Assembly: GCA_021821885.1 (NCBI GenBank)
Contig: JAKARO010000002.1
Coordinates: 1-64,000 of the forward strand
Origin: Pseudomonadota bacterium
GTDB lineage: Bacteria > Pseudomonadota > Gammaproteobacteria > Acidithiobacillales > Acidithiobacillaceae
DNA length: 64,000 bases
Reading direction: 5' to 3'
Shown here: piece after piece, positions 26,732 to 58,482 of the stretch
Position numbering within the stretch: position 1 is the stretch's first letter
How the letters are laid out: every line of letters starts with the position of its first letter
The notes under the pieces: model-generated
The model's input: only the letters and a program-made list of their open reading frames with translations
What the model was told of the DNA's origin: nothing
Databases searched by the model: none
Program-made: the position numbers and the translations under genes

Positions 26732-29700
26732 TCACAGCAGCACGCGCTCGATGCCGCCAGCCCGGACCCGGGCGGCAAACTGCTGGGCCCAGTCGCTTCC
26801 CAGATGCTGCCGGGCGAGTTCCACCACGATATAGTCGGTCTCCAGTCCCGTATCCTCCCGGTAACGGTCCAGCCCCTGCTGGCAGGCCGGGCAGGAGGTC
26901 AGCAGCCGGACATTGCCGTTCTGGGCCCGGTCGCCACCCGTCAGGGTGCGAATCCCCTCCTGCAGGATTTCCTCCTTGCGGAAACGCAGCTGGCTGGCGA
27001 TATCCGGCCGGCTGCTGGCCAGGGTTCCGGCTTCCCCACAGCAGCGTTCAGAGGCCAGGACGTCCTGCCCCAGCAGGCGTTCAGCCACAGTGAGAGGCTT
27101 GTAGGTTTTCATCGGGCTGTGGCAGGGATCGTGGTAGAGGTACTGGACGCCTTCTACCCCTGCCATGGAAACCCCCTTTTCCATCAGGAACTCGTGAATG
27201 TCCAGCAGGCGGCAGCCCGGGAAAATCTGCTGGAACTGGTATTTGAGCAGCTGGTCCATGCAGGTTCCGCAGGAAACAAGGACAGTCCGGATATCAAGGT
27301 AATTCAGGGTGTTGGCCACCCGGTGGAACAGCACCTGATTGCGAACGGAAATTTCCTGCCCCCGGTCTTCCTGCCCGGCGGCCGTCTGGGGATAGCCACA
27401 GCAAAGATAGCCCGGAGGCAGCACGGTCTGGACGCCCACGTCATGGAGCATGGCCAGGGTGGCAAGTCCAATCTCACTGAAGAGACGCTCACTCCCGCAG
27501 CCGGGAAAATAGAAAACGGCCTCGCTGTCGGGTTGGGTGCGGACGGGATCCCGCAGGATCGGAACCGTCTGTGCATCCACAATACCCAGGATCTGGCGCA
27601 TGGTCTGGGCCCCCATGTCCGTTGGGAGCGGTTTGCGCAGGAAATGCACAATTTCGGCCCGGAGAGAGGGTTTCCCAGTGGTGGCTGGTGGCGGGCCCTT
27701 GGGCAGTACCGGCTTCGCTACCGCGTGGGCTGCGGCCTGTAAATGGTAAGCGGTCTGGAGAACCCCCTGGCGCAGGAAATGTACGGTGCGTGGTTCAGTC
27801 GCATTGAGATAGGTGAGGGCCAGGCGGGTTCCTGCAGCCACGGATTTCTCTCCCCGTGCCCGTAGCAGGTTGCGGATGTGGACGGACACCTCGCCAAAAT
27901 CGATGTCTACCGGGCAGGGAGTCATGCACTTGTGGCAGGTGGTGCAGTGGTCCGCGACGTCATCCAGTGCGGCGAAATGCTGCTGCGAAACGCCACGGCG
28001 CGTCTGCTCCTCATACAGGAAGGCCTCAATCAGCAGTCCTGTGGCGAGGATCTTGTTGCGCGGAGAGTAGAGGAGGTTGGCCCGGGGTATGTGGGTCATA
28101 CACACAGGCTTGCATTTTCCGCAGCGGAGACAGTCCTTGATCTCCCGGTTGAGGGAATCCAGTTCATTGGCCTCGAGAATCAGGGCCTCCTGTTCCACCA
28201 GCTGCAGGGAAGGCGTGTACGCCATTTCCAGCCCGGAGCCGGGGAGGAGCTTCCCGGGATTGAATACGCCCTGGGGATCTACTTTTTCCTTGTACTGGCG
28301 GAATGCCTCTATCTTTTCCGGTTCCAGCCAGCGCATTTTGGTGATGCCAATGCCATGTTCACCGGAGATGACGCCACCCAGAGATTTGGCAATCTCCATG
28401 ATCCGGTCCACGACCCGGTCCGCGGTATGCAGCATCTGGTAATCCGAGGACAGGACAGGGATGTTGGTGTGGATGTTGCCATCTCCGGCATGCATGTGGA
28501 GTGCGACGAAAATCCGGGTCCGGCGCAGGCGCTCGTGGATACGCCGGATTTCCGCCAGGACTCCGGTAAAACGTTCCCCGGTGAACAGCTGTTCTAGGGG
28601 GTTGCCAATGGCTTCCCGGTAGCTGATCCGCAGGGTCCGCTGCAGCAGAAGGCGCAGCAGGGTCTGGTCGGAGCCGGTCTTCTGGGAACTGTCTGGGGAC
28701 AGGCCGGCCAGAAAATCACTGGCCGGGAGATCCAGGTTTTCCAGCCAGGCCTGCCAGCGGGCACGGATCTCTGCGAGCAGGGCAAGGGCGGCCTGGCGCT
28801 TCCCGGCCACAATATCCCGTTCTTCCAGGCTTTCCTCATAGTCCTTGGCCTGCCGCAATTCTGGCAGGTCTCCGTGAAGATAGGACACTAGCGCATCGAT
28901 GATGTGGATCTTGTTGGTGATCGACTGCTCGATGTTGATACGCTCGACGGCCCGGGTATATTCCGCCAGGCGGTCCAGCGGAATAACGACATCCTCGTTG
29001 ATCTTGAAGGCGTTGGTGTGGGCGGCAATGGCTGCTGTCCGGCTGCGGTCGGCCCAGAACTGTCGGCGTGATTCAGGGGTTGTTGCTATAAAACCCTCCG
29101 CTCCCCGGGCGTTGGCCAGCCGCACAACCATGGATGCGGCAGCGCCCGCCGCTGCCGCATCGTCGCTGGCGAGTTCCGCGAGGAGCAGCATCTTGGGCCG
29201 TTCCCGCCGGGGGGCCTTGTTGCTGTATTTCACGGCTTTGATGTAGCGTTCGTCCAGATGCTCGAGACCGGTCAGGAGGACGCCAGGGAGGCTCTCGACG
29301 TGATTTTTAACCTCAATGATGGCCTCTACGGCCGGCTCCAGATCCTGGCCGTAGAATTCCAGGCAGATGGTGCGGATATGCCGCGGCATACGGTGCAGGA
29401 TGAACCGTCCCGAAGTAATGATTCCGTCGCAGCCTTCTTTCTGGATTCCAGGCAGTCCGCCCAGGGCCTTGTCCGTGACATCCTTGCCGAGTCCCGGCCG
29501 GCGCAGACTGCTGCCGGGCATTTCCAGGAGTTCTGGTTCTCCGGAAGGGGTATGTCCGTCCGGCCCATAGCGGGAAAGGCGGAACCGCACCTGCTCCTGT
29601 TCATGGATTTTGCCGAGGTTGTGGTCCAGACGCTCGACTTCCAGCCAGGATCCATCTGGTGTAACCATGCGCCATGAGACCAGGTTGTCCAGTGTGGTTC

Positions 29701-30565
29701 CCCAGAGGACGGCCTTTTTCCCGCCGGCATTCATGGCGATGTTGCCGCCGATGGTTGAGGCGTCCAGCGAGGTAGGATCCACCGCAAAGACCAGTCCCTC
29801 CGCTTCAGCGATGTCCGCCACCACCTTGGTAACGACACCGGCACCAGCCGTGATGGTAGGTACGTCCTGTCCGGTACCGGGAAGTCCTGTTCCGATGATT
29901 GCGGAAAGCTGCTCCAGTTTTTCGGTGTTGAGGACGGCGCAGCGGGAGTGGAGGGGGATGGCCCCGCCCGTATAGCCGGTACCCCCGCCCCGGGGAATGA
30001 TGGAGAGGCCCAGATCCCGGCAGGCCTGCACCAGTCGGGCTACCTCGTCCTCATCGGCCGGGTAGAGCACAACAAACGGCAGTTCCACCCGCCAGTCCGA
30101 CGCATCGGTGACGTGGGCTACCCGCGCGTAGGGGCTAAAATCAATGTGGTCTCTTGGCGCGATATGCCAAAACCGTTTTTCTGCCCGATGTCGCAGCGCA
30201 AGCAGGGCGTCGAATTCGGCAATGAACTTCCGTACGGCCTCGCGCGCCTCCTGCAGGAGGCGTTCGACGAGGCCATTGCTGCCAGCACGGCTGCCGATAT
30301 CGTTCAGGCGGTGGTGCAGGGCATTCCACAGAGCAATGCGCCGTTCCCGGTTCCCGGCCAGGTCTTCCTGGATGTAGGGATTGCGGGAGACCACCCACAG
30401 GTCGCCCAGGACCTCAAAAAGCATGCGGGCGGACCGTCCCGTCACCCGCTGGGTCCGCAGGTCCTCCAGGATGCGCCAGGATTCGCTGCCGAGAAAACGG
30501 CGGACGATTTCGGCATCGGAATAGGAGGTATAGTTGTAGGGAATTTCCCGGAGTCGCTCGGTCAT
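26732..30565 (-). CDS. Fused FAD-linked oxidase and Fe-S/CCG oxidoreductase (DUF3683)
   Basis: The protein has 1277 residues. N-terminal residues 1-150 match DUF3683 (MTERLREIPYNYTSYSDAE). An FAD-binding type 4 domain follows (SIIPRGGGTGYTGGAIPLHS), then the C-terminal FAD-oxidase lobe (HMHAGDGNIHTN, SGEHGIGITK). Two 4Fe-4S motifs come next (CLRCGKCKPVC and CTTCHKCMTPCPVD). Two CCG domains end the protein (FYFPGCGSERLF and GYLCCGYPQ; DPCHSPMK and ERCCGEAGTLA). This joins what GlcD and GlcF do as separate subunits and probably oxidises a 2-hydroxyacid such as glycolate or D-lactate, with electrons to the membrane. In an autotroph, glycolate salvage is a plausible use (inference). It starts immediately after panC. 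Confidence 0.88.
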   Translation of the reverse strand: MTERLREIPYNYTSYSDAEIVRRFLGSESWRILEDLRTQRVTGRSARMLFEVLGDLWVVSRNPYIQEDLAGNRERRIALWNALHHRLNDIGSRAGSNGLVERLLQEAREAVRKFIAEFDALLALRHRAEKRFWHIAPRDHIDFSPYARVAHVTDASDWRVELPFVVLYPADEDEVARLVQACRDLGLSIIPRGGGTGYTGGAIPLHSRCAVLNTEKLEQLSAIIGTGLPGTGQDVPTITAGAGVVTKVVADIAEAEGLVFAVDPTSLDASTIGGNIAMNAGGKKAVLWGTTLDNLVSWRMVTPDGSWLEVERLDHNLGKIHEQEQVRFRLSRYGPDGHTPSGEPELLEMPGSSLRRPGLGKDVTDKALGGLPGIQKEGCDGIITSGRFILHRMPRHIRTICLEFYGQDLEPAVEAIIEVKNHVESLPGVLLTGLEHLDERYIKAVKYSNKAPRRERPKMLLLAELASDDAAAAGAAASMVVRLANARGAEGFIATTPESRRQFWADRSRTAAIAAHTNAFKINEDVVIPLDRLAEYTRAVERINIEQSITNKIHIIDALVSYLHGDLPELRQAKDYEESLEERDIVAGKRQAALALLAEIRARWQAWLENLDLPASDFLAGLSPDSSQKTGSDQTLLRLLLQRTLRISYREAIGNPLEQLFTGERFTGVLAEIRRIHERLRRTRIFVALHMHAGDGNIHTNIPVLSSDYQMLHTADRVVDRIMEIAKSLGGVISGEHGIGITKMRWLEPEKIEAFRQYKEKVDPQGVFNPGKLLPGSGLEMAYTPSLQLVEQEALILEANELDSLNREIKDCLRCGKCKPVCMTHIPRANLLYSPRNKILATGLLIEAFLYEEQTRRGVSQQHFAALDDVADHCTTCHKCMTPCPVDIDFGEVSVHIRNLLRARGEKSVAAGTRLALTYLNATEPRTVHFLRQGVLQTAYHLQAAAHAVAKPVLPKGPPPATTGKPSLRAEIVHFLRKPLPTDMGAQTMRQILGIVDAQTVPILRDPVRTQPDSEAVFYFPGCGSERLFSEIGLATLAMLHDVGVQTVLPPGYLCCGYPQTAAGQEDRGQEISVRNQVLFHRVANTLNYLDIRTVLVSCGTCMDQLLKYQFQQIFPGCRLLDIHEFLMEKGVSMAGVEGVQYLYHDPCHSPMKTYKPLTVAERLLGQDVLASERCCGEAGTLASSRPDIASQLRFRKEEILQEGIRTLTGGDRAQNGNVRLLTSCPACQQGLDRYREDTGLETDYIVVELARQHLGSDWAQQFAARVRAGGIERVLL

Positions 30566-47202: not shown

Positions 47203-48262
47203 TGTCCGGCCGGAGTAAAGCCGTCTGGAACTGGATGCCGGACAGGACATTTCTGGTTCTGTTTGACAGGGACGCAATGTTTGCTCCTCCTGGGGCCAGC
47301 CGAACCCAACCGTTCCAGCCCAGAAAACTGGCAATCTCGAAATTCGATGATATAATAAGATAAAAGGGTACGCATATAATACAAAAGTGGGAGAGCCAGA
47401 AGGAATGGAGCTGATCTGCCGGAAAGAAGAACGAGTGCCAATCCTGCGGACCGGAGACCGGGAGGCTTCCGTAAATTTCCGGACGGATCGGGTCTGGACC
47501 CGCCATGTTGGTTGTCGCTCTGCCTGCCGTTCTTTTCTGGCGAGGGTTTCATCTGCAGGTTCCCATTTTACGGATTTCCGCCTGGCCTTTTGCTCGGAGT
47601 TTTGCTCCAGGAAGAATTTGGTTCCCTTCTGTTCCGGAAAACATGAGTGTCGCGGAGATTCTCCGTCCTGTTACCGGACCGGAAAGGCTGTGTGTCCCGG
47701 GCAAATTCAGGAGGATAGCCGGGGGACCAAAGCCCAGACATTATATAATGTGTATGAGACGTTTCCGGGTGAAGCTGCGCCTGTTCTCCCAGCAGCTTTT
47801 CCCGCGACGGGGCAACCGTTTTCCGGAAAACGCTGGAACGGCTGCTCTCCTTTTCCTGTGGGGAAAGGTTCTGGGGGACGACAGCCGGTTTTCTCGTTTT
47901 CCCCCTCTCTCCAGAACGTTCCCGGGTAGTCCTGGGGAGAAAAAAATGCAACAGGGTGCCCGGAATTTTATGCACCTACTTTACAAGGCTCTTATATTCT
48001 GTATTTAACAGGTGACATTTGTGTTGCGTCATGCATAATGGTAAAACAACGTTATAAGGTTAAACTTTGTTAATAGGAGGATAAAAAAACAGAAATACTG
48101 AATAATGTAATCTGTTTATAAATGGCGTGTTTTATTCCGGTAGTGCTAGGTCGGGGCAAGGTGAACCGGTCTGAGGAGTGAGGAGGAAGAAATACGCCGG
48201 GGTTGGCGGCCCGGGCGGTTCGGCCGGATTCGCCGAAAGAGAACAAAATAGGGAGAACAAAC
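47203..48262. other. Long upstream region of the electron-transfer cluster
   Basis: About 1.06 kb without a supported gene. The left end should hold the tonB promoter; 47345-47385 is very AT-rich with several TATAAT-like stretches. A perfect 16-nt palindrome CGTTTTCCGGAAAACG lies at 47817-47832. From about 47960 to 48130 the DNA becomes AT-rich and contains AGGAGGATAAAAAAAC with no open frame after it. A frame at 47505-48008 is open but has no domain, so I do not call it. Promoters for the cyc2-like gene probably lie in the AT-rich part. Confidence 0.5.
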
Positions 48263-49690
48263 ATGAAGATCACGAACGAAAATCTGCGGAAACGCAGAGG
48301 CAGGATCTGGAAGGGCGTCGGTGCCACCCTTGCCATCGGGGCGGCCATGTACTCGGTCAGCGCCGAGGCTCTGCCGACCTTTGCCCGCCAGACCGGATGG
48401 TCGTGCGCAACCTGCCATACGTCCTATCCACAGCTGACTCCCATGGGGCGGATGTTCAAGCTCCTGGGCTATACCACCTACAACGTGCAGCGGCAGCAGA
48501 AAGTTGAGGCCAAATTTGGCAAGAGCGTTGGTCTGCTGCTGATGCGGCTCTCGCAGTTCTCGGTGTTTGTCCAGGGCGCCTATACCAATGTGAACAATGG
48601 CGCCGCAGGTAACTCCATGACCAATACGGTCAAATTCCCCGAGCAGCTCAGCCTGTTCTACTCCGGGGAGATTACGCCGCATATCGGTGCCTTCATGCAT
48701 CTCACCTACCATGGAACCGGTGGCGGCATAGGCTTTGATGACAGCTCGATTGTCTGGTCCCATCCCTGGAGCCTCGGTACCAACAAGATGCTGATCACCG
48801 CAGTCGACGTAAACAATACCCCTTCGCAGACCGATATCTACAACACGACGCCAGACTGGGTCGCCCCTTTCTATAGTCCGGACACCACCCCGGGCGGACC
48901 GCTTACCTTTATCCAGCAGACCGCGGGTGCCGGTGCCCCTCTCGTGGGTGTCGGGACCTATGAGGCCTACCTGTTCGGTCCGGACAAGGCCAACTGGATT
49001 TACTTCGAGGCGGATGCCTACGCCCCGGGTTACGGTACTGGTGTGACCCCGAACAATGGTGGCAATGCGCCAGGGAATTTCCCCTTTGGAGCCGGCCGTC
49101 TCTCCGGAGTGGCTCCCTATGTCCGTCTGGCCTACCAGCACGACTGGGGCAACTGGAACTGGGAAGTGGGTACCTTTGGCATGTGGAGCCGGGTATACGA
49201 CGCGCCGGGAGATCTCAAAACCGGGCAAACGGACCGTTTTGCTGACTACGATCTCGATACGCAGCTGCAGTGGCTGGATATTGCCAACAACAACAACCTG
49301 ACAGTCCACGCGTCCTGGATCCATGAAGACCAGACCTTTGCGCCGGGAACGGCACTGTCGAGTACGTCCAGCGGCCATCTAAACTCCCTGAATGTCAATG
49401 CGGAGTACTGGTACCACGACCATTATGGCGCGGAGGCCGGTTACCAGAACGTCTGGGGTTCCGCGAATCCGGGTCTGTATGGCACAGGATCTACCATCAG
49501 TGCGAATGGTTCCCCTGATACGACCGACGAATGGATTGAAGCCTCCTATCTCCCCTGGTGGAATACGCGGTTTGCAATCCGTTACACCATCTTCAACAAG
49601 TACCAGGGACTGACGGGAAGCAGCCCCGCCGGAAGCTATGACGCTTCAGCGTTCAATACGCTGCAGCTTCTGGCCTGGCTGGCATTCTAA
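48263..49690 (+). CDS. cyc2: Cyc2-like outer-membrane porin-cytochrome c
   Basis: The protein has 475 residues. GGGAG lies upstream of the ATG. A signal peptide (residues 1-36, ending SAEA) leaves LPTFARQTGWSCATCHTS at the mature N-terminus, with one heme-c site (Cys48, Cys51, His52). The other 400 residues show alternating aromatic/polar beta strands and end in a terminal Phe, as outer-membrane barrels do. This is the fused cytochrome-porin form of Cyc2, which takes electrons from Fe(II) at the cell surface in Acidithiobacillus and other iron oxidisers. Here it heads a run with cytochromes c4 and petABC, not a rusticyanin operon. Other extracellular donors are possible. Confidence 0.82.
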   Translation: MKITNENLRKRRGRIWKGVGATLAIGAAMYSVSAEALPTFARQTGWSCATCHTSYPQLTPMGRMFKLLGYTTYNVQRQQKVEAKFGKSVGLLLMRLSQFSVFVQGAYTNVNNGAAGNSMTNTVKFPEQLSLFYSGEITPHIGAFMHLTYHGTGGGIGFDDSSIVWSHPWSLGTNKMLITAVDVNNTPSQTDIYNTTPDWVAPFYSPDTTPGGPLTFIQQTAGAGAPLVGVGTYEAYLFGPDKANWIYFEADAYAPGYGTGVTPNNGGNAPGNFPFGAGRLSGVAPYVRLAYQHDWGNWNWEVGTFGMWSRVYDAPGDLKTGQTDRFADYDLDTQLQWLDIANNNNLTVHASWIHEDQTFAPGTALSSTSSGHLNSLNVNAEYWYHDHYGAEAGYQNVWGSANPGLYGTGSTISANGSPDTTDEWIEASYLPWWNTRFAIRYTIFNKYQGLTGSSPAGSYDASAFNTLQLLAWLAF

Positions 49691-49707
49691 GGGGAGGAAC
49701 AGAAGCA

Positions 49708-50364
49708 ATGTCTAAATGCAATTCTTTGCGGAAAAGTCTCTCCTTCAGGGGTGCCCTGGCGGGAGCCGGTACTGTGGCGCTGGCCGTACTGTCGGTTTCG
49801 GCTGCGTCGGCTGCCACAAAAGCTCCTCTTCCGATGCCCTCCATCGTGGAGCATTCCTGTATGGTCTGCCATGGTGGTATGGGAGAGAATACGATTTACC
49901 CCATCGTGCCCAGGCTTGCCGGACAGCAGGTCCAGTATCTGGAATGGCAGCTGAAACAGTTCCACAAGCACACCCGTGCGGACCAGAACGGGCAGATCTA
50001 CATGTGGCCGGTGGCCCAGGCACTGACGCCTGCGGACATCAATACGCTGGCGAAGTACTACTCATCCCAGAAGCCCATGCACAGTGAAACCCCAGCAAGG
50101 CCGGAAGCCGCTGCCGGAGAGAAAATCTTCATGAATGGCATCGGTGCCAATGTCCCGGCCTGTATGGCCTGCCACGGTCCGACCGCTGGTGGCATCGGTA
50201 CGTTCCCCCGTCTGGCGGGACAGCGCTACCACTATATCATCCAGCAGCTGAAGTATTTCCACAAAGGCGAACGGGTGAATCCCATCATGCAGCCTATTGC
50301 AGCGGCGCTGACGGTCCCTGAGATGCACGACCTCGCAGCGTACCTGTCCAGTCTGAAGAATTGA
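49708..50364 (+). CDS. Diheme cytochrome c4 family protein
   Basis: The protein has 218 residues. After a signal peptide (ends near SAASA, residue 35) there are two cytochrome c domains, with CMVCHGG at 51-57 and CMACHGP in the second half. The tandem domains and the pattern PRLAGQ...YLEWQLKQF, PRLAGQ...YIIQQLKYF are typical of cytochrome c4. In Acidithiobacillus such proteins (CycA/Cyc1) pass electrons between outer-membrane cytochromes, bc1 and oxidase. It begins 17 bases after the cyc2-like stop. Confidence 0.88.
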   Translation: MSKCNSLRKSLSFRGALAGAGTVALAVLSVSAASAATKAPLPMPSIVEHSCMVCHGGMGENTIYPIVPRLAGQQVQYLEWQLKQFHKHTRADQNGQIYMWPVAQALTPADINTLAKYYSSQKPMHSETPARPEAAAGEKIFMNGIGANVPACMACHGPTAGGIGTFPRLAGQRYHYIIQQLKYFHKGERVNPIMQPIAAALTVPEMHDLAAYLSSLKN

Positions 50365-50426
50365 TGGGCATAAGGACCGGTTCCGGTCCCGTACGGGAAA
50401 AGCAGTTCTGATCCGGTTCTCAAACC

Positions 50427-50448
50427 GGCATGGCCTTCGGGCCATGCC
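50427..50448 (+). promoter_or_regulatory. Hairpin with a UUCG tetraloop between the two cytochrome genes
   Basis: GGCATGGCC and GGCCATGCC form a perfect 9-bp stem closed by TTCG, one of the most stable RNA loops. It lies between the two cytochrome c4 genes, 20 bases before the second ATG. No T run, so it is more likely an RNA stability or processing element than a terminator. Confidence 0.75.
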
Positions 50449-50467
50449 ACCAACCCAAGGTGACTCT

Positions 50468-51226
50468 ATGACAGGAAAAAAGTTGTCGTTGTTCGCGGTA
50501 CCCTGGCTGGTTGCGTTTTCGCTGCCTCCGGCTGCCAGTGCAGCGGTTGCAGCCAAGGCCGTGTCGGGAAAAGCGGTTTCGGCTGCTGTTTCGGCAGCAA
50601 CGGCGTCTTCAGCTTCGGCTGCCGGCGCAGCTTCTGCCAGTAGTACGTCTGCAGCTCCGGCTGCTGCCGCTGCCACAACGGTGGGTGGGGTGCCGGCTAT
50701 CGTACAGTCGACCTGTATGGCCTGCCATGGCATGCAGGGAATTGCCGCCGATGGAGGGATGTTTCCCAACCTGGCGGGTCAGGTACCCCAGTACCTGATG
50801 CGGCAGCTGCACCACTTCCAGACCCATGTCCGCGCGGATCCTGATGCGCCGATCATGTGGGGCATGGCTGCCCCCCTGACGCCTGCCCAGATCAGCCAGG
50901 TTGTGGCATATTTTTCTGCCCAGAAACCGGCCACCGGGCATGTGTATGATGCGAAGCTGGTGGCGGAAGGCCAGAAGCTCTACTACGGCGGACTTCCCGC
51001 GAAGCATATGCCCGCGTGTATGGCCTGCCATGGAACGGGGCTGGCTGGACTTCCTCCCTTCTTCCCGAGACTTGCCGGGCAGAAACGGACCTACGTCATC
51101 AACCAGCTGACCTATTTCAAGAGTGGTCAAAGGGTAGCTACCCATAAAGGAATCATGAACTATATCGCTTCAAGACTGACTCCGCAGCAGATTACCGAGC
51201 TGGCTGCGTTTATTAGATCCCGGTGA
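50468..51226 (+). CDS. cycA: Cytochrome c4-like protein with an Ala/Ser-rich linker
   Basis: The protein has 252 residues. The signal peptide is followed by a low-complexity stretch of about 45 residues made almost only of Ala, Ser, Val and Thr. Two cytochrome domains follow (CMACHGM near residue 86 and CMACHGT in the second half). The gene sits directly before sdr-petABC, the position of cycA in the Acidithiobacillus pet operons. The linker may let the heme domains reach from a membrane-bound or crowded partner (inference). It precedes the short-chain dehydrogenase gene by 6 bases. Confidence 0.85.
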   Translation: MTGKKLSLFAVPWLVAFSLPPAASAAVAAKAVSGKAVSAAVSAATASSASAAGAASASSTSAAPAAAAATTVGGVPAIVQSTCMACHGMQGIAADGGMFPNLAGQVPQYLMRQLHHFQTHVRADPDAPIMWGMAAPLTPAQISQVVAYFSAQKPATGHVYDAKLVAEGQKLYYGGLPAKHMPACMACHGTGLAGLPPFFPRLAGQKRTYVINQLTYFKSGQRVATHKGIMNYIASRLTPQQITELAAFIRSR

Positions 51227-51232
51227 TTTTCT

Positions 51233-52042
51233 ATGAAAATGGATGAAAACGCAAGTCCCGAGAAACCCGGAATGCTGGGTGGCAAAACCATTCTGGTCAC
51301 TGGCGCCGGAGAGGGAATCGGCAAGGCAGTCTCCCTCGAATACGCACGGCAGGGCGCAACTGTCATCCTGCTGGGAAAGACCAAGCGCAATCTGGAAGGG
51401 GTATACGATGAAATAAAAGATTCCGGCTATCCGGAACCGGCCATACTGGTCGTAGACCTGTCCGAGCCCAGGAGCGATGCCTTCAAGACGATTGGGGCAG
51501 CCATCGCCAGTGAATTCGGGAGTCTGGATGGTATTGTCCACAATGCCGCAGAACTGGGCATGCTGACCCCGCTGGAGATGTACGATGGTGATCTGTGGGA
51601 CCAGGTTTTTCAGGTCAATGTGAAGGCCCCTCTGCAGATCCACCAGCAGTGTCTGGGGCTGATGCGGGAAAGCGTCTATGCCTCGATCATCTTTACGACG
51701 GACGAATCGGGCAGAAAGCCGAAGGGGTACTGGGGAGCGTACGGCATCAGCAAGGCTGCGGTTCTCCATATGGGAAAAATGATGGCTATCGAGTATGCCA
51801 ATACGTCCATCCGGGTCAATGTTGTGGATCCCGGACCCTGCAGGACCGGTCTGCGACTCATGACGCATCCCGGAATGCCGATGAAAAGCTATGTTCCCCC
51901 CGAAGCCATCACCGGGATTTATACCCGTCTGATGACCGACGAGGTCCAGGCGCACAATGGGGAGGTCTTTTTTGCCCAGGAGTGGATCAATCCGGAGCTG
52001 GATGACCGGACAGAAAGTGATCTGGCAGCACTGGCACATTAA
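51233..52042 (+). CDS. sdrA: Short-chain dehydrogenase (SdrA type)
   Basis: The protein has 269 residues. The Rossmann motif TGAGEGIGKAV, the VHNAAELG stretch and the catalytic YGISK are present. Ser at the usual position before the Tyr is in TTDESGRK. The gene between a cytochrome c4 and petA is the signature of the Acidithiobacillus pet operons, where it is called sdrA. Its substrate is unknown. No signal peptide, so cytosolic. Confidence 0.85.
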   Translation: MKMDENASPEKPGMLGGKTILVTGAGEGIGKAVSLEYARQGATVILLGKTKRNLEGVYDEIKDSGYPEPAILVVDLSEPRSDAFKTIGAAIASEFGSLDGIVHNAAELGMLTPLEMYDGDLWDQVFQVNVKAPLQIHQQCLGLMRESVYASIIFTTDESGRKPKGYWGAYGISKAAVLHMGKMMAIEYANTSIRVNVVDPGPCRTGLRLMTHPGMPMKSYVPPEAITGIYTRLMTDEVQAHNGEVFFAQEWINPELDDRTESDLAALAH

Positions 52043-52069
52043 TCAGACATCTTTGACAGGACGTTACCC

Positions 52070-52711
52070 ATGACAGAAGACATAAAGAACACCCAGAAAA
52101 GCATAGAACCGCAGACTTCACCTGCGGTGATTACGCGACGCCGCTTCCTTACTGCAATGACAGCTGTGACCGGAACTGCCGTGGCTGGCGCCGTGGTCGT
52201 TCCGATGGTCCAGTCCCTGGAACCCACCGCAGCCGCTTCGGCCCTGGCCACGACCACGGTTGATCTGACTCCCATTGAGCCGGGCATGCAGGTCACGGCC
52301 ATGTGGCAGGAAAAACCGATTATTGTGATCAACCGTACACCAGAGATGCTGGCCACGCTGGATGAGACCATGCAAAAAGGGCTTCTGAAGGATCCCAACT
52401 GCACGGTTCCCCAGCAGCCACCCTACTGCAAGAACAAGTACCGTTCGCGCATACCGGAATGGTATGTGGGGATTCGCATCTGCAACCATCTCTGCTGCAT
52501 TCCCCATTACCGCCCGAAAAAGGGCAGTGTCGCCCCCTGGTGGCTGGGTGGTTTCCACTGCCCGTGCCATGGGTCCATGTATGACCTTTCCTGCCGGGTA
52601 ATCAAGGGTTCTCCCGCCCCCCACAACATGGCCGTGCCAGAGTATGAAATTGACATTGCCAAGAAGAAGGTGGTGGTGACCCATATGTATCCGCTGGCAC
52701 ATCTCTGCTGA
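52070..52711 (+). CDS. petA: Rieske Fe-S subunit of the bc1 complex
   Basis: The protein has 213 residues. A twin-Arg signal/anchor (TRRRFLTAM, helix at 29-49) inserts it in the membrane. Cluster ligands are in CNHLCCIPH (Cys138, His140) and CPCHGSMYD (Cys164, His167), with disulfide Cys143 and Cys166. The usual CTHLGC has become CNHLCC, with an extra Cys at the normal Gly. A 25-residue insertion with Cys111 and Cys120 lies before the cluster region. It starts the petABC run and is followed by petB after 26 bases. Confidence 0.93.
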   Translation: MTEDIKNTQKSIEPQTSPAVITRRRFLTAMTAVTGTAVAGAVVVPMVQSLEPTAAASALATTTVDLTPIEPGMQVTAMWQEKPIIVINRTPEMLATLDETMQKGLLKDPNCTVPQQPPYCKNKYRSRIPEWYVGIRICNHLCCIPHYRPKKGSVAPWWLGGFHCPCHGSMYDLSCRVIKGSPAPHNMAVPEYEIDIAKKKVVVTHMYPLAHLC

Positions 52712-52737
52712 TCCGTGCAAAGGAAAAGGAGGCAAAA

Positions 52738-53952
52738 ATGGGTCTGAAAGAGTGGGTTTACAAGCGGTCTCCGCTTCCTGAAATGTGGCGTGAGCACATG
52801 GCGGAGTACTATGCTCCCAAGAACTTCAATATTTTTTATTACGCAGGGTCTCTCCTGCTACTGATGGTGGCGCTCCAGTTCCTCTCCGGATTTCTGGTTC
52901 TGGCGCATTATATCCCCTCCGCTGAGAATGCCTACAATTCCGTGTTTGGCATCATGTACGATGTGAAATACGGCTGGCTGATGCAGTACATGCACATCGA
53001 CGGGTCTTCACTGATTTTCGTCCTGCTGTATGTGCACATGGCCCGTGGGATGCTCTATGGCTCCTACAAGGCGCCCCGGGAACTGGTCTGGCTGATCGGG
53101 TACACCCTCTATCTGGTGTTTATGGCCGAATCGTTCTTCGGCTACGTGCTGCCCTACTCGAACCTGTCCTATTGGGCGGGAACGGTGATCACCTCCCTGC
53201 TCAAGTCCATACCCTTTATCGGCGGATGGGTCACGACCATTGCCCGCGGTGGTCCGGGCATCAGCGGGGATACCCTGGGCCGTTTCATGGCGCTGCACGT
53301 CACGCTGGTGTTTATCCTGATTCTCGGTCTGATCGCCGTGCACATCCTCTATCTGCACAAGGTTGGTTCGAACAATCCGGACGGCATTGATATCAAGGAA
53401 AACAAGGACAGTGATGGCCATCCGCTGGACGGGATTCCCTTCCATCCATACTATTCCGTCAAGGATCTTTCCGGATTCGGGGTCTGGCTGTTCATTTTTT
53501 CAGCAATCATTTTCTATGCCCCGACGTTCCATCACATCTTTCTTGAGCGCACCATGTCGACCCCGGCCAACGCACTCAAGAGTCTTCCGGATGTGACGCC
53601 ACCCTGGTATCTCTCGCCGTTCTACGCGATGCTCCGCTCCATTCCCAACAAAACGGGCGGTATTCTGGTGATGGTGTTTGCGGTGCTGGTACCTTTCATC
53701 CTGCCCTGGCTGGACCGCAATCCGGTCCGTTCCACCCGGTACCGTCCGGTGACCAGGATCATGCTCATCATCTTCTTTATCAACTTTTTCGTGCTGGCCT
53801 GGGTGGGGGAGCAGCCTCCGCTGCCGAAGTTTTTCCTCACGGAGCGTCTGGGTACGGCAATCTATGTCGGCTTTTTCCTGCTGCTCCCCATCGTGACGAT
53901 GTTTGAGCCCACGCGAAAACCGCCGGCCCGGGTCCGTTACCGTGCACACTGA
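52738..53952 (+). CDS. petB: Cytochrome b of the bc1 complex
   Basis: The protein has 404 residues with at least eight membrane helices and the His pairs of the two hemes on helices B and D. The Qo-site motif that is normally PEWY reads PPWY here (residues 288-291, 53599-53610), followed by LSPFYAMLRSIPNKTGG. The Glu of this motif takes part in proton release during quinol oxidation, so its loss is notable. It may reflect operation at low pH or in the reverse direction (inference). petC follows 30 bases later. Confidence 0.95.
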   Translation: MGLKEWVYKRSPLPEMWREHMAEYYAPKNFNIFYYAGSLLLLMVALQFLSGFLVLAHYIPSAENAYNSVFGIMYDVKYGWLMQYMHIDGSSLIFVLLYVHMARGMLYGSYKAPRELVWLIGYTLYLVFMAESFFGYVLPYSNLSYWAGTVITSLLKSIPFIGGWVTTIARGGPGISGDTLGRFMALHVTLVFILILGLIAVHILYLHKVGSNNPDGIDIKENKDSDGHPLDGIPFHPYYSVKDLSGFGVWLFIFSAIIFYAPTFHHIFLERTMSTPANALKSLPDVTPPWYLSPFYAMLRSIPNKTGGILVMVFAVLVPFILPWLDRNPVRSTRYRPVTRIMLIIFFINFFVLAWVGEQPPLPKFFLTERLGTAIYVGFFLLLPIVTMFEPTRKPPARVRYRAH

Positions 53953-53982
53953 CACCGGCACGCAGAGAAGAAAGGACGATTT

Positions 53983-54684
53983 ATGAAAAAGCTTCTTGTC
54001 ATTGGTACCCTGGTGGCTGGGCTCGGTATGGGGAGTCTGGTGGCGGCGGAGGCAGCAACAGCTCCGGTGCTTATGAAGCCGAAGTACACCTACGACGCCA
54101 AAACCATTATTGCGGGAGCCAAGCTGTTTGCCATGCACTGCATGGTCTGCCACTCTGTCCAGTTTATGCGCTACGAGTTCCTCACCCAGGATCTTGGCAT
54201 GTCCAAGGCAGATGTCCACAAGTACATCATGCTGCCGACTGGAGCGGGATATAAGGCAAACATGATCTCTGCCATGCCGGTCAACATGGCCAGCAAATGG
54301 TTCGGACGCCCACCGCCAGATCTCAGCCAGATGGAGCGTTACAAAAGCCAGGACTGGATCTATACCTACCTGCTTTCGTTCTACCAGGATTCGAAAAGAC
54401 CTTCGGGATGGAACAACCATGTGTTTCCCAACGTGGCCATGCCAGATGTTTTGGCCCCGATAGGCGGGACGTGGAGCAAGGACGGCAAGCTCCTGAAGGC
54501 AGGCGATGAGTCTCAGCAGAAGTTCCGGAAACAGGTGACCGACATTGTCGCTTTCCTGCGGTTCGTTTCGGATCCTTCAGTGGTCCAGCGGCATGAGTTT
54601 GGGCCATGGGTCCTTGGGCTCTTTGCGCTGTTTACGATTTTCGCCTACCTGCTCAAGAAGGCGTACTGGAAGGATGTGAAGTAG
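53983..54684 (+). CDS. petC: Cytochrome c1 of the bc1 complex
   Basis: The protein has 233 residues. Signal peptide (residues 1-24), heme site CMVCHSVQFMRY, the Met-ligand region near AMPVNMASKWFG, and a C-terminal membrane anchor (GPWVLGLFALFTIFAYLLKK). It accepts electrons from the Rieske protein or, in reverse operation, donates to it. It ends the petABC run. The next gene (HiPIP) lies after a 409-base structured interval. Confidence 0.94.
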   Translation: MKKLLVIGTLVAGLGMGSLVAAEAATAPVLMKPKYTYDAKTIIAGAKLFAMHCMVCHSVQFMRYEFLTQDLGMSKADVHKYIMLPTGAGYKANMISAMPVNMASKWFGRPPPDLSQMERYKSQDWIYTYLLSFYQDSKRPSGWNNHVFPNVAMPDVLAPIGGTWSKDGKLLKAGDESQQKFRKQVTDIVAFLRFVSDPSVVQRHEFGPWVLGLFALFTIFAYLLKKAYWKDVK

Positions 54685-54890
54685 GGCGGCTAGCCTGCGG
54701 GTTTCCGGGTGGCATCTGCGCCAGGGGGTACGCAGGCTGGATTGGGAAGGAAAACCGGCTGCCAGTTTGCACGGGCCGGACGTGGTTGCGACAGGATGGC
54801 TCCCCAGTCCCGGACTGGATGGAAATCTGGTGCCAAACGCTCGCCGTCATCAAAGCTGGCGTCGGTTACGGATGTTCCCAGGGGAGAAAA

Positions 54891-54945
54891 TGCACCGCAG
54901 GGTGCACGTTACAAGGTCCGCAAGGACACGGAGCCGAAAGGCTCC
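54891..54945 (+). ncRNA. Three consecutive tetraloop hairpins upstream of the HiPIP gene
   Basis: Within 55 bases the plus strand forms TGCACC-GCAG-GGTGCA (54891-54906), GTCC-GCAA-GGAC (54916-54927) and GGAGCC-GAAA-GGCTCC (54930-54945). Two of the loops are GNRA tetraloops. Further down, CCGCC...GGCGG and TCCCG...CGGGA can pair just before the Shine-Dalgarno sequence of the HiPIP gene. The 409 bases between petC and HiPIP hold no supported gene. I recognise no known riboswitch. It could be a leader or processing region. Confidence 0.5.
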
Positions 54946-55093
54946 ATCTATTCTGGAAACGGCTTTGACAAAGATGATGCGGGGTGTCCCGTACAACTGG
55001 AAGAAGTCGCTGTAGTGCTGTTCTGCCGCCTCCCTGTCCCGAAGTCCGACGGGAAAGGCGGTGCCCCACGGAAAGATGTAAAGGAGAACTGTA

Positions 55094-55411
55094 ATGGAAA
55101 GAAAAAAAGATGGAATTGGGAGCCAAAAACCGCAGGTCATGACGCGTCGTGAGCTGCTCCGTGGAATGGCCGTAACGGCCGGTGTTCTTGCGGCTGGTGC
55201 AGCCGCCGGGATCGGTCCGATTGGTATTGCTGAAGCGGGAAAGTGCCCGGGGATGACGCCCAAGGCGACCCTGCACTATCAGGACCACCCCAATGGAGCA
55301 CAGCACTGCGCGGTGTGTACCAACTTTATCGCTCCAGGCTGCTGCAAGGTTGTGGCTGGTCCGGTTGTTCCGACCGGGTACTGCCTGGCATTTTCCCCCA
55401 AAGCTGCCTGA
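55094..55411 (+). CDS. hip: High-potential iron-sulfur protein (HiPIP/Iro-like), copy 1
   Basis: The protein has 105 residues. AAAGGAG lies before the ATG. A twin-Arg signal (TRRELLRGM, then an Ala/Gly-rich stretch) ends near residue 49. The mature part carries the four-Cys pattern HCAVCTNFIAPGCCKVV...GYC (Cys72, 75, 83 or 84, 97), which holds a 4Fe-4S cluster as in Iro of Acidithiobacillus. An extra Cys51 and the CC pair are unusual. It is a periplasmic electron carrier placed after petABC, as hip is in pet operon II of Acidithiobacillus. A second copy lies at 56231. Confidence 0.88.
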   Translation: MERKKDGIGSQKPQVMTRRELLRGMAVTAGVLAAGAAAGIGPIGIAEAGKCPGMTPKATLHYQDHPNGAQHCAVCTNFIAPGCCKVVAGPVVPTGYCLAFSPKAA

Positions 55412-55433
55412 GGGTATGATCTGAAGGGGTATT

Positions 55434-55459
55434 CCCATCCGGTTCAGGAACCGGATGGG
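55434..55459 (+). terminator. 11-bp hairpin after HiPIP copy 1
   Basis: CCCATCCGGTT and AACCGGATGGG pair perfectly around CAGG. No T run follows (GGAAATAT). It may stop some transcription or protect the upstream message. It lies 22 bases after the HiPIP stop. Confidence 0.6.
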
Positions 55460-55627
55460 GAAATATCCATGGGGCTCTGGTGACCTGCCAGGGCCGGATG
55501 GACAAACAGGCTGCAGGGTGCCTGTCCGGAGGTTCGGTTCTCCCATGGACCGGGAGTGTGGCCGTGCCGGCAGCCTGGAGCCTGGTGTTTCAGCCGGGCC
55601 ATGCTGACCATAAAAAAGGAGTACGCC

Positions 55628-56074
55628 ATGAAGAGAAAAATGACTGTCATTGCGGGTGCTACAGCGGCTGGAATGCTTGCCCTCATGGGCTTGACGGGAA
55701 CGGCCATGGGCGCCGATGCCGGAAAGGTCATGCAGCAGACGATCCATCGCGGTTCCCTGCTTTTTGCCTCCTCTGCCCTTGGGAGTAATGGCCGGTCCTG
55801 CATGACCTGCCACCGGGGGGGAGGCATGGTCCAGGGGCGGCTTCCCAACGGCAAGATCATTCCAAGCCTCAAGGGAGTCGCCGCAAAATTCCCGCAGTAC
55901 AATGCCAAGGCTGGAAAAGTCATCACCCTGGACATGAGAATCAATTCCTGCATCCAGAATGCGCTGGGTGGAATGCCCCTAAGCTACAATGGGAAGAGAA
56001 TGGTGGCCATGGTCTCCTATCTGACTTCCCTGTCGGAGGGAAACCGTATCCAGCTGGCAGGCGCGAAGTCCTGA
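55628..56074 (+). CDS. Single-heme c-type cytochrome
   Basis: The protein has 148 residues. AAAGGAG lies 8 bases before the ATG. Signal peptide (ends near residue 28), heme site CMTCH (Cys58, Cys61, His62), and a second half with RINSCIQNALGGMPLSYNGK and MVAMVSYLTSL that resembles SoxA/SoxX-like cytochromes. A third Cys (in RINSC) is conserved in that group. It probably moves electrons in the periplasm. It lies between two HiPIP copies with a large hairpin after it. Confidence 0.8.
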   Translation: MKRKMTVIAGATAAGMLALMGLTGTAMGADAGKVMQQTIHRGSLLFASSALGSNGRSCMTCHRGGGMVQGRLPNGKIIPSLKGVAAKFPQYNAKAGKVITLDMRINSCIQNALGGMPLSYNGKRMVAMVSYLTSLSEGNRIQLAGAKS

Positions 56075-56133
56075 GGCGGCTGGCCTGAGGCTGCTGTCCG
56101 GAGGCAGGCGGCTGGTGCTGCGATCCTCCGGCA

Positions 56134-56172
56134 GCAGACATCCGGCAGGCAGACTGCCTGCCGGATGTCTGC
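56134..56172 (+). terminator. 19-bp perfect hairpin between cytochrome c and HiPIP copy 2
   Basis: GCAGACATCCGGCAGGCAG and CTGCCTGCCGGATGTCTGC are exact reverse complements with one base between them, so a stem of about 18 bp with a 3-base loop can form. It is followed by CCCCAGGATTTT, not a clean T run. As RNA it would be a very strong stop or processing site. As DNA it could be a palindromic binding site. Confidence 0.75.
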
Positions 56173-56230
56173 CCCCAGGATTTTCCGGGCACAGGGGGTG
56201 TCACCTCGGGAATGGCAAAGGAGAACCACA

Positions 56231-56548
56231 ATGGACACTGAAAAAGATGGAAACGGGAGTCCCAAACTGGAGGTCATGACGCGTCGTAAGCTGCTCCGTG
56301 GAATGGCCGTAACGGCCGGTGTTCTTGCGGCTGGTGCAGCCGCCGGGATCGGTCCGATTGGTATCGCCGAAGCGGGAAAATGCCCCGGCACCACACCCAA
56401 GGCTGCGGTGGCCTACCAGGATCATCCGAATGGCGCAAAGCACTGTGCGACCTGCGCATTTTTTATTGCTCCAGGCTGCTGCAAAGTTGTCGCTGGGCCA
56501 GTTGTTGCGTCTGGATACTGCAAGGCCTTCTCGCCAAAGATGGCCTGA
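56231..56548 (+). CDS. High-potential iron-sulfur protein (HiPIP/Iro-like), copy 2
   Basis: The protein has 105 residues, the same length as copy 1. The signal region (TRRKLLRGM onward) is almost identical to copy 1 at the DNA level. The mature part keeps all Cys (51, 72, 75, 83, 84, 97) but differs at many positions (HCATCAFFIAPGCC, GYCKAF). The two probably work with different partners or potentials. AAAGGAG precedes the ATG. A hairpin with a T-rich arm follows the gene at 56571-56596. Confidence 0.88.
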   Translation: MDTEKDGNGSPKLEVMTRRKLLRGMAVTAGVLAAGAAAGIGPIGIAEAGKCPGTTPKAAVAYQDHPNGAKHCATCAFFIAPGCCKVVAGPVVASGYCKAFSPKMA

Positions 56549-56570: not shown

Positions 56571-56596
56571 CCCCTTTTTCCCCCAGGGAAAAGGGG
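56571..56596 (+). terminator. Hairpin after HiPIP copy 2
   Basis: CCCCTTTTTCCC can pair with GGGAAAAGGGG around CCA with one bulged T. ATTTCTGTCTG follows. This marks the likely end of the electron-transfer cluster. Confidence 0.55.
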
Positions 56597-57177: not shown

Positions 57178-57288
57178 CCGCTGTGCCAGCCAATTCCGGG
57201 ATGTTTCTGGCGCACAGGAATCGCAAGGCCGGGAAGCTGCTGCCCGGACAGATCCGGAACCCTAACCGTCCGGAGGGTGGTGACACAG

Positions 57289-57735
57289 ATGAGATGGCGT
57301 GAGCAGGTTTTGCTGTCGGGAGGGCGCGAACTTCCCCAGATCCGGGTCAGCCTGATGGCCTTTTTCCGCCCGCTGGCCATTTTTCTGTTTTCCCTCCTGC
57401 TGTTCTGGGGCGGTACGAGACTCGCGGATATGGCCGGTACGGTCGCCTTGGTCCTGTCCATCATTGACGCCGCTACAGTGGGGGCCCTGTTTTTTTCTAC
57501 AGCCTGCTGGGCGAACGGTACCCAGCTTTTTGTGCGGTATGGGGTGGTGCGGCCGGTCTATGCCTCGGTGGATGCGGCTGATATCCGTGGTATCGGCGTA
57601 GACCAGTCCGCTGCCGGACGGCTGCTGGGTTACGGATCAGTGGTCATTCTTGCCCGGACCGCCGGGATACGGATGCAGTTCATCCACAATCCTGCCGCGG
57701 CTGCAGACCGGATCCGGGAAAGCCTTCAGGCCTAG
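57289..57735 (+). CDS. Membrane protein with a PH-like domain
   Basis: The protein has 148 residues from the ATG at 57289. GTG starts at 57277 and 57280 are alternatives with GGAGG nearby. Two hydrophobic segments (about 20-40 and 50-70) are followed by a bacterial PH (YdbT-like) domain (WANGTQLFVRYGVVRPVYASV, then LLGYGSVVILARTAG). Such proteins sit in the inner membrane with the PH domain in the cytoplasm. Role unknown. Confidence 0.72.
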   Translation: MRWREQVLLSGGRELPQIRVSLMAFFRPLAIFLFSLLLFWGGTRLADMAGTVALVLSIIDAATVGALFFSTACWANGTQLFVRYGVVRPVYASVDAADIRGIGVDQSAAGRLLGYGSVVILARTAGIRMQFIHNPAAAADRIRESLQA

Positions 57736-57885
57736 CCGTAAACCCGGTACCGCTACAGGTAATACCGCACGACCCGCATGGCCAGAATATCCTGGTCATG
57801 CGGAGAGACAGTCCGCGGGAAGGAACGCGGCTGGACCACCATCTGGAATCTGCTATGGCCAGCCAGCTGGCCGGGAGAAGGAGTG

Positions 57886-58482
57886 ATGACAGAATCAGGC
57901 AGGGATTTTGATGCGGTCACCAAAACCATTCACCTGGGCATGGCTACTGTGCTGCCGCTCCAGATGGTGGGCGGACTGTTTGTCCACGATCCCCATACGC
58001 TATGGTATCTGTATGCCCACGAATATCTGGGCATTCTGGCAATTGCGATTCTGCTCGCCAGGTGGCTTTGGATTTATACTGCGAGCCAGGCCAATGTCCT
58101 GTTTCCCTGGGGATCTGACGGAAGAAAAAAAGTACTGGCCGACCTCCGTAACCTGCGTTCCGGCATTCTGCCGGATCACCTATATGGGGTGGGCCTGCCT
58201 GGCTTCTGGCACGGGATCGGGCTGATCGTATATTCCATCCTTGCAGCAACAGGCCTGATCCTGCTGTTTGTGCTTCCCGGCCACCATTCGGTTCTTGGGA
58301 TTTCATCTCACAATTTCCGTCTGTATACAGAGATATCCCTGATCCACAAGATGGCTTCCTATCTTGGATGGGTCTATCTGGCCGGGCATGTCGGTCTGGC
58401 CATTTTTCACCAGATTGCCGGAGACAACGTCCTGGGACGGATGTTTTTCCTTGGGGGACGGCGGAGCGCGTCCGGGCGCTGA
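57886..58482 (+). CDS. Cytochrome b561-type membrane protein
   Basis: The protein has 198 residues. GAAGGAG lies upstream of the ATG. Four hydrophobic helices contain His residues suited to heme b (IHLGM near 16, YAHEYLG near 45, WHGIG near 110, VYLAGHVGLAIFHQI near 165-178). It resembles the b561 / Ni-Fe hydrogenase cytochrome b group. It may link quinones to a periplasmic partner, and its place after the pet/HiPIP cluster suggests a redox role (inference). Confidence 0.78.
   Translation: MTESGRDFDAVTKTIHLGMATVLPLQMVGGLFVHDPHTLWYLYAHEYLGILAIAILLARWLWIYTASQANVLFPWGSDGRKKVLADLRNLRSGILPDHLYGVGLPGFWHGIGLIVYSILAATGLILLFVLPGHHSVLGISSHNFRLYTEISLIHKMASYLGWVYLAGHVGLAIFHQIAGDNVLGRMFFLGGRRSASGR

Follow-up and report, generated by a model that had tools for sequence, protein, structure and literature searches.

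Described cyc2 and pet loci and the gene cluster of the window

Several described loci of Acidithiobacillus resemble the gene cluster analysed here, which joins cyc2, the gene of an outer-membrane cytochrome, to the genes of a cytochrome bc1 complex. The cluster lies in the window, the whole 64,000-nucleotide stretch of contig JAKARO010000002.1 from an Acidithiobacillaceae genome. The rus operon (cyc2-cyc1-cup-coxBACD-rus) begins with cyc2 and cyc1 (PMC10654088). A. ferrooxidans carries the petII operon (cycA2-sdrA2-petA2B2C2-hip, AFE_2727-2732), as well as the petI operon (cycA1-sdrA1-petA1B1C1), whose complex has been assigned to uphill electron flow (PMC2754497). It also carries a cyc2B-cyc1B pair that is isolated from petII (PMC7735108). 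In Acidithiobacillus, cyc2/cyc1 genes standing alone, sometimes flanked by transposases, and separate pet operons have been described (PMC10654088), and a 2021 survey found Cyc2 together with pet genes confined to the Acidithiobacillus iron/sulfur clade (PMC8528912).

In the window, ten genes at 48263-56548 on the plus strand follow the order cyc2-cyc1-cycA2-sdrA2-petA2-petB2-petC2-hip-cytochrome c-hip. This order and the single direction agree with the initial annotation of the sequence; opposite-strand open reading frames (ORFs; e.g. 48146-49378, 51170-52039) only overlap the named genes. The features of the cluster are as follows.

48263..49690, plus strand: Cyc2, outer-membrane monohaem cytochrome-porin, 475 amino acids (motifs, tree, predicted fold)
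49708..50364, plus strand: Cyc1-type dihaem cytochrome c4, 218 amino acids (two CXXCH; Cytochrom_C; Cyc1 branch of the c4 tree, Shimodaira-Hasegawa-like approximate likelihood ratio test (SH-aLRT) 97)
50444..51226, plus strand: CycA2-type dihaem cytochrome c4, 260 amino acids (two CXXCH; CycA branch SH-aLRT 99, petII side 90)
51233..52042, plus strand: SdrA2-like short-chain dehydrogenase, 269 amino acids (adh_short, E 2e-39; TGAGEGIG, YGISK; petII side of the Sdr tree 100/100)
52070..52711, plus strand: PetA, Rieske subunit of bc1 (TIGR01416, 204 bits; cluster ligands present; petII side 100/100)
52738..53952, plus strand: PetB, cytochrome b of bc1, petII type (identity to A. ferrooxidans copies; petII side 100/100)
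53983..54684, plus strand: PetC, cytochrome c1 (PF02167; CMVCH; petII side 100/100)
55094..55411, plus strand: HiPIP 1, Hip/Iro-like (NF041615, 99.9 bits; Tat-like signal by eye)
55628..56074, plus strand: monohaem cytochrome c with a SoxA/TsdA-type domain, 148 amino acids (PF21342, E 1e-19)
56165..56548, plus strand: HiPIP 2, start probably at 56231 by alignment to HiPIP 1 (NF041615, 87.1 bits)

The genes from cyc2 to petC are separated by gaps of 17, 79, 6, 27, 26, and 30 bp, and a ribosome-binding-like sequence precedes several starts in the cluster. The genes from cyc2 through petC are probably transcribed together. Beyond petC, around the HiPIP and cytochrome genes, the gaps are 409, 216, and 90 bp.

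The window shares the gene types and gene order of the petII operon and, downstream, genes for a bPH_2-domain protein and a cytochrome b561; it adds cyc2-cyc1 in front and the SoxA/TsdA-type cytochrome and a second HiPIP behind. It shares its cyc2-cyc1 start with the rus operon, but has bc1, c4, and HiPIP genes where the rus operon has cup, the aa3 oxidase, and rusticyanin. Five gene types are held in common with the petI operon, which has neither hip nor cyc2 and whose PetA, PetB, PetC, and Sdr fall on the opposite side of their trees. The parts of the cluster are thus known; the joined cyc2-cyc1 and petII arrangement is new within the literature searched (titles, starts of abstracts, and passages), where no description of cyc2 adjoining petABC was found and a prior description is possible.

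Identity of the cluster proteins

Members of the Cyc2 family are marked by the motifs AXPXFAR[QK][TY], CXXCH, and PXL and by a haem domain that is followed by an outer-membrane barrel of 16 strands (PMC8406198). All the haem-domain motifs are present in the window protein (ALPTFARQT at 36, CATCH at 48, PQL at 56). In a tree of 42 rows, it falls inside the Acidithiobacillia Cyc2 clade with support 100/100, a placement that rejects a position of the first gene outside Cyc2. Its predicted fold, modelled from 53 sequences, has 16 long barrel strands (mean predicted local distance difference test score (pLDDT) 78), an earlier model from 12 sequences having been too weak (pLDDT 40). The top Foldseek matches of the model are porins and AlgE, with TM-scores of about 0.3-0.6. 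The protein has no match in Pfam or NCBIfam, and a sequence search of the PDB returned none. The first gene, called Cyc2-like in the initial annotation, is cyc2, and its product is the predicted outer-membrane contact with iron. Within the clade, the window Cyc2 branches deep with the copy of a sister species (G005; the window's own genome is G000), and the tree joins this pair to neither the A nor the B type of Cyc2. Measured by path, the rows closest to it, the G005 copy aside, are the B copies and the copy of genome G028, which itself groups with the B type (100/96).

Both genes annotated as c4 encode dihaem c4 cytochromes; their assignment can be refined, as the first is Cyc1, the usual partner of Cyc2, and the second lies on the CycA branch. 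The c4 tree that places these branches is a quick tree with a long-branch warning, and it does not place the window Cyc1 with the B type. A smaller c4 tree splits CycA from Cyc1 with support 100/100 and does not separate CycA1 from CycA2.

The petI/petII split is supported at 100/100 in the PetA, PetB, PetC, and Sdr trees (midpoint-rooted, a very distant acidobacterial locus, L181, being left out), and the window lies on the petII side in all four, which rejects a bc1 complex of the petI type. In a PetB tree that includes L181, the window lies outside petI and no supported fork joins it to petII. Window PetB is 86% identical to the hip-adjacent copy of genome G019 and 65% to the other G019 PetB. 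The window likewise has the cycA-sdrA-petABC-hip order of the petII operon. We take G019 as A. ferrooxidans ATCC 23270, its petII, petI, and rus order matching the locus tags in the accessible text of PMC2754497. At residue 288, the window PetB has the motif PPWY in place of PEWY, the motif usual for the cytochrome b quinol site and present in both A. ferrooxidans copies.

The two HiPIP genes form a tandem duplicate with 81% DNA identity. Neither product reaches the curated equivalog cut-off of NF041615 (100 bits); both are clear homologues with a HiPIP-like Cys pattern.

Conservation of the cluster

Cyc2 was found in 14 of 57 genomes searched, 11 of these 14 belonging to the family Acidithiobacillaceae (29 genomes). 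A block of cyc2-cyc1-cycA-sdr-petA-petB is present in five of the 11 Cyc2-bearing family genomes (G000, G005, G024, G027, and G028), which represent two genera. It continues with petC-hip in four carriers, and in G028 the contig stops inside petB. The adjacency of Cyc2 and bc1 genes noted in the initial annotation is therefore that of one conserved block. Its presence in four more genomes, those of uncultured relatives, rejects a cluster unique to the window's genome, and this recurrence of the Cyc2-to-bc1 block across two genera also rejects a chance arrangement. The five carriers do not count as independent cases, given the near identity of G024 and G027. Completeness is 91.5% for G000, 61% for G005, 90% for G024, 85% for G027, and 81% for G028, with 5% contamination in both G027 and G028.

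In each of the five carriers, one PetB was found, of the petII type, and no petI cytochrome b. The other six Cyc2-bearing family genomes (G011, G014, G019, G020, G022, and G026) have both petI and petII PetB and carry Cyc2 elsewhere, on a separate contig from PetB or at least about 10 kb away. A. ferrooxidans keeps its cyc2 and pet loci apart, in line with the Acidithiobacillus arrangement named in the initial annotation. A Fisher-type calculation by hand for the petI/cluster association (5/5 vs 6/6) gives ~0.002; the figure carries no correction for relatedness, and we do not treat it as proof.

From GTDB genomes, 114 Cyc2 relatives were obtained, and 80 of these were retained, each with up to 10 kb of flanking sequence. 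A PetB-like sequence lies near Cyc2 in at least 5 of the 80 loci, namely those of the four other carriers and acidobacterial L181, a count that is a lower bound as only 51/80 loci have at least 4 kb downstream of Cyc2. In L181 (758-4266), a PetB-like gene (29%) stands about 1.1 kb downstream of Cyc2, possibly an independent link between Cyc2 and a cytochrome b. Within the genus code of the window's genome, 6/8 genomes have no Cyc2 match. A petII cluster is present in G025 (L244, contig C5), a genome without a Cyc2 or rusticyanin match, so that petII may exist without any Cyc2. A second Cyc2 of G022 (L018/L024, 2182681-2184107) spans two frames and may be a broken gene or a sequencing error.

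Comparison with A. ferrooxidans loci and assembly of the cluster

The left-hand neighbour of petII in G019 also borders the block in G024, G027, and G028, at a place where G019 itself lacks cyc2. On the right flank of the window, the bPH_2 and cytochrome b561 genes match those after hip in G019.

57277..57735, plus strand: bPH_2-domain protein (PF03703; 41% to L241_8580; flank common to the G019 petII locus)
57778..58482, plus strand: cytochrome b561-type protein (PF01292; 58% to L241_9133; flank common to the G019 petII locus)

A second cyc2-cyc1 pair stands alone in G019 at 1.23 Mb (L240), about 1.2 Mb away from petII by its coordinates. By inference, we take it to be the Cyc2B/Cyc1B pair described in the available text of PMC7735108. 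Like the window pair, it consists of Cyc2 followed by a dihaem Cyc1; the window pair, however, is not grouped as B. This 1.23-Mb pair does group with the Cyc1 proteins of G024, G027, and G028 and, for Cyc2, with the G028 copy. The G024 Cyc2 (L154:10001-11542) is a mosaic of a B-type signal peptide and an A-type body: over the first 49 aligned residues, identity is 84% with the G028 copy and 51% with Cyc2A, and over the remainder, taken block by block, it is 73-92% with Cyc2A. This mosaic points to recombination between Cyc2 paralogues and suggests that bodies of the two types may be interchangeable within the cluster. The G027 copy (L156) is 97% identical to that of G024.

Behind pet-hip in G024 (L154:17252-21539) are genes for a SoxA/TsdA-type cytochrome, a thioredoxin-like protein, ResB, and one more protein, the last resembling the gene after a ResB-like gene near petI in G019. 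ResB and its neighbours indicate that cytochrome c assembly genes trail the G024 cluster.

The window cluster is followed by a terminator-like hairpin.

56571-56596, plus strand: terminator-like hairpin with an 11-pair stem after the second HiPIP, the longest stem of the scan

The scan of 11.4 kb gave 21 terminator-like sites against 10.5 expected. Promoter-like matches in the cluster scan, one of them at 48012, were at chance level (6 vs 5.4 expected). Elsewhere in the window, a minus-strand ORF of 1277 amino acids at 26732-30565 has two matches to the CCG (cysteine-rich) domain, and similar long ORFs were matched in G019, G024, and G028.

Respiratory inventory of the carrier genomes

In G000 (91.5% complete), no CuA oxidase was found. 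Its one haem-copper oxidase is read as a bo3-type quinol oxidase because subunit II has no CuA motif. Searches of G000 found no bd oxidase, no NiFe hydrogenase, and no rusticyanin over the cut-off, the nearest being a 20-bit match to a plastocyanin/azurin-type protein. The rusticyanin and cox search suggested by the initial annotation thus returned one bo3-type oxidase, and the idea that a HiPIP or c4 takes the place of rusticyanin fits this genome. The gene for the 49-kDa subunit of NDH-1 is present, as is a cluster with HdrB-like, DsrE, GcvH-like, radical SAM, and lipoate-ligase genes. Such a cluster is typical of sHdr sulfur oxidizers, and these predicted genes make the organism a likely sulfur oxidizer.

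None of the five COX2 genes of G000 (1), G024 (3), and G027 (1) carries the CuA motif (0/5), and no rusticyanin over the cut-off was found in G024 or G027. G024 has three haem-copper oxidases, with no bd oxidase found, and G027 has one haem-copper and one bd oxidase. Rusticyanin is present in G005 (two over the cut-off) and in G028. G005 also has a CuA-containing aa3 oxidase, and its cup-coxBAC-rus locus (L232:7353-12529, contig C30) is not preceded by cyc2-cyc1; no Cyc2 other than the copy in the pet cluster was found in this 61% complete genome. Synteny between the G005 rus locus and G000 runs up to L232:6505 and resumes from L232:14761. At the corresponding site, G000 has transposase genes and a contig end on one side and a contig end within 297 bp on the other, contigs C2 and C30 ending near the breakpoints of this comparison. 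Rusticyanin is likely absent from G000; given the 91.5% completeness and the contig breaks, it may instead be unassembled.

Proposed function

We infer a merged conduit that would link outer-membrane Cyc2, through periplasmic Cyc1, CycA2, and the HiPIPs, to inner-membrane bc1 II (the petII complex) and the quinone pool. Sulfur-derived quinol would be oxidized by bc1 II with energy conservation, and CycA2/HiPIP/Cyc1 and then Cyc2 would pass the electrons on to Fe(III) outside the cell. The conduit is probably reversible, and for G000 we rank forward flow, from quinol to Fe(III), first. This reading, a merged iron-quinone conduit whose main direction in the window's genome would most likely be from quinol towards Fe(III), is held tentatively, its probability falling a little short of even. 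With quinone and iron values that we take as given, the carrier potentials presumably run downhill from quinol and stay below Fe(III). The published potentials are +560 mV for Cyc2, +385/+485 mV for Cyc1, +510/+430 mV for CycA, and +550 mV for Hip at pH 2 (PMC7735108).

Forward flow is favoured because petII, Hip, Cyc2B, and Cyc1B of A. ferrooxidans rise in Fe(III) respiration, all four increasing during anaerobic H2 oxidation with Fe(III) (PMC7735108). The authors of that study propose an electron path via bc1 II and CycA2 to Cyc2, in which Hip could stand in for rusticyanin/Cyc1 and vice versa. The carrier order of their model is like that of the window (quinone - bc1 II - CycA2 - Cyc1/Hip - Cyc2); the model, however, includes rusticyanin and rests on the expression of scattered loci, whereas the window has one cluster and its genome no rusticyanin found over the cut-off. 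In a 2022 review (PMC8790237), the sulfur-linked Fe(III) route through bc1 II, CycA2, and Hip ends in 'a still unknown reductase'.

A stronger form of this reading is that the cluster encodes a self-contained chain from quinol to extracellular Fe(III) (bc1 II - CycA2/HiPIP - Cyc1 - Cyc2) that would need neither rusticyanin nor a cytochrome c oxidase, with Cyc2 chiefly a terminal Fe(III) reductase and not an Fe(II) oxidase; we regard this as somewhat unlikely. A number of observations weigh against forward flow to Fe(III). According to PMC7735108, almost all rus products also rise in anaerobic Fe(III) reduction by A. ferrooxidans, rusticyanin is part of its Fe(III) model, Hip may not be essential, and the B copies are considerably scarcer than the A copies. 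A. ferridurans with an inactivated rus operon, an operon that includes cyc2 and cyc1, is cited there as having lost the ability to reduce Fe(III). The trees do not place the window Cyc2 and Cyc1 as B type, and the body of the G024 Cyc2 is of A type. In G005, where the rus-aa3 locus has no cyc2-cyc1 of its own, the Cyc2 of the cluster is probably used in Fe(II) oxidation as well. In G000, rus may be unassembled, as the contigs break at the matching site, and the H2/Fe(III) condition may be inapplicable, as no NiFe hydrogenase was found.

The initial annotation had proposed the opposite direction, a direct branch from an extracellular donor to the quinone pool, uphill for NAD reduction. As it was stated, this flow is not upheld, as the proteins that increase in Fe(III) reduction (PMC7735108) suggest that electrons may run the other way. 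The bc1 complex is of the petII type and not the petI type assigned to uphill flow; in favour of the proposal, the petII PetB is the sole one found and the NDH-1 49-kDa gene is present. A fuller version, in our judgement less likely than not, would take electrons from Fe(II) through Cyc2, Cyc1/CycA2/HiPIP, and a reversed bc1 II to quinone and NDH-1 for NAD, an unassembled rus-aa3 system carrying the downhill flow. With one PetB found in the carrier genomes, any uphill flow must use bc1 II; the sister species G005 has two rusticyanins and a CuA aa3 oxidase, G000 has the NDH-1 subunit, and its assembly is broken at the rus site beside transposase genes. Reverse flow (Fe(II) to quinone to NDH-1) is accordingly favoured, and probable, in G005 and G028, because rusticyanin is present there and no second PetB was seen. 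However, neither rusticyanin over the cut-off nor a CuA oxidase was found in G000, G024, and G027, so that the G000 assembly has no downhill branch to power the uphill one. The petII type also counts against it: in A. ferrooxidans, expression of hip, petB2, petA2, and sdrA2 on sulfur exceeds that on Fe(II), with no significant change in cycA2 and petC2 (PMC2754497). NAD-uphill flow as the sole function is set aside, not refuted.

The remaining explanations are both improbable. The cyc2-cyc1 pair could be a mobile pair that landed beside petII and shares no circuit with it, bc1 II serving another periplasmic acceptor. The isolated pair in G019, the lone and in part transposase-flanked cyc2/cyc1 genes described in Acidithiobacillus (PMC10654088), and the petII cluster of G025, where no Cyc2 was found, fit this idea, but the adjacency persists across five genomes from two genera, the genes are closely spaced in the window, and a search of G000 found no cytochrome c oxidase as an alternative acceptor. 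Slightly more improbable is Fe(II) respiration without a cytochrome c oxidase, in which the acid-driven proton gradient would drive electrons from Cyc2 through a reversed bc1 to quinone and the bo3-type oxidase to O2. The sole terminal oxidase found in G000 is of the bo3 type, so Cyc2 electrons would reach O2 only through quinol, and by our own estimate from stoichiometry the route is thermodynamically possible. It would be costly compared with aa3, no precedent was met in the literature passages searched, and the induction of petII in A. ferrooxidans points to forward use.

Significance

The chain from bc1 II to Cyc2 had been proposed from expression in A. ferrooxidans (PMC7735108); the order of genes in five genomes now links Cyc2-Cyc1 with bc1 II on grounds other than expression. 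By genus codes, Cyc2 together with pet genes extends beyond the Acidithiobacillus iron/sulfur clade, Cyc2 being found in 2/8 genomes of the window's genus code. For other routes, Cyc2 is already the proposed Fe(III) reductase (PMC8790237, PMC7735108). If the cluster does form a self-contained chain from quinol to Fe(III), Cyc2 would be the reductase that the petII/Hip pathway has lacked, and it would act as such also in a group of genus rank apart from that of A. ferrooxidans. The arrangement thus bears on how acidophiles may respire Fe(III).

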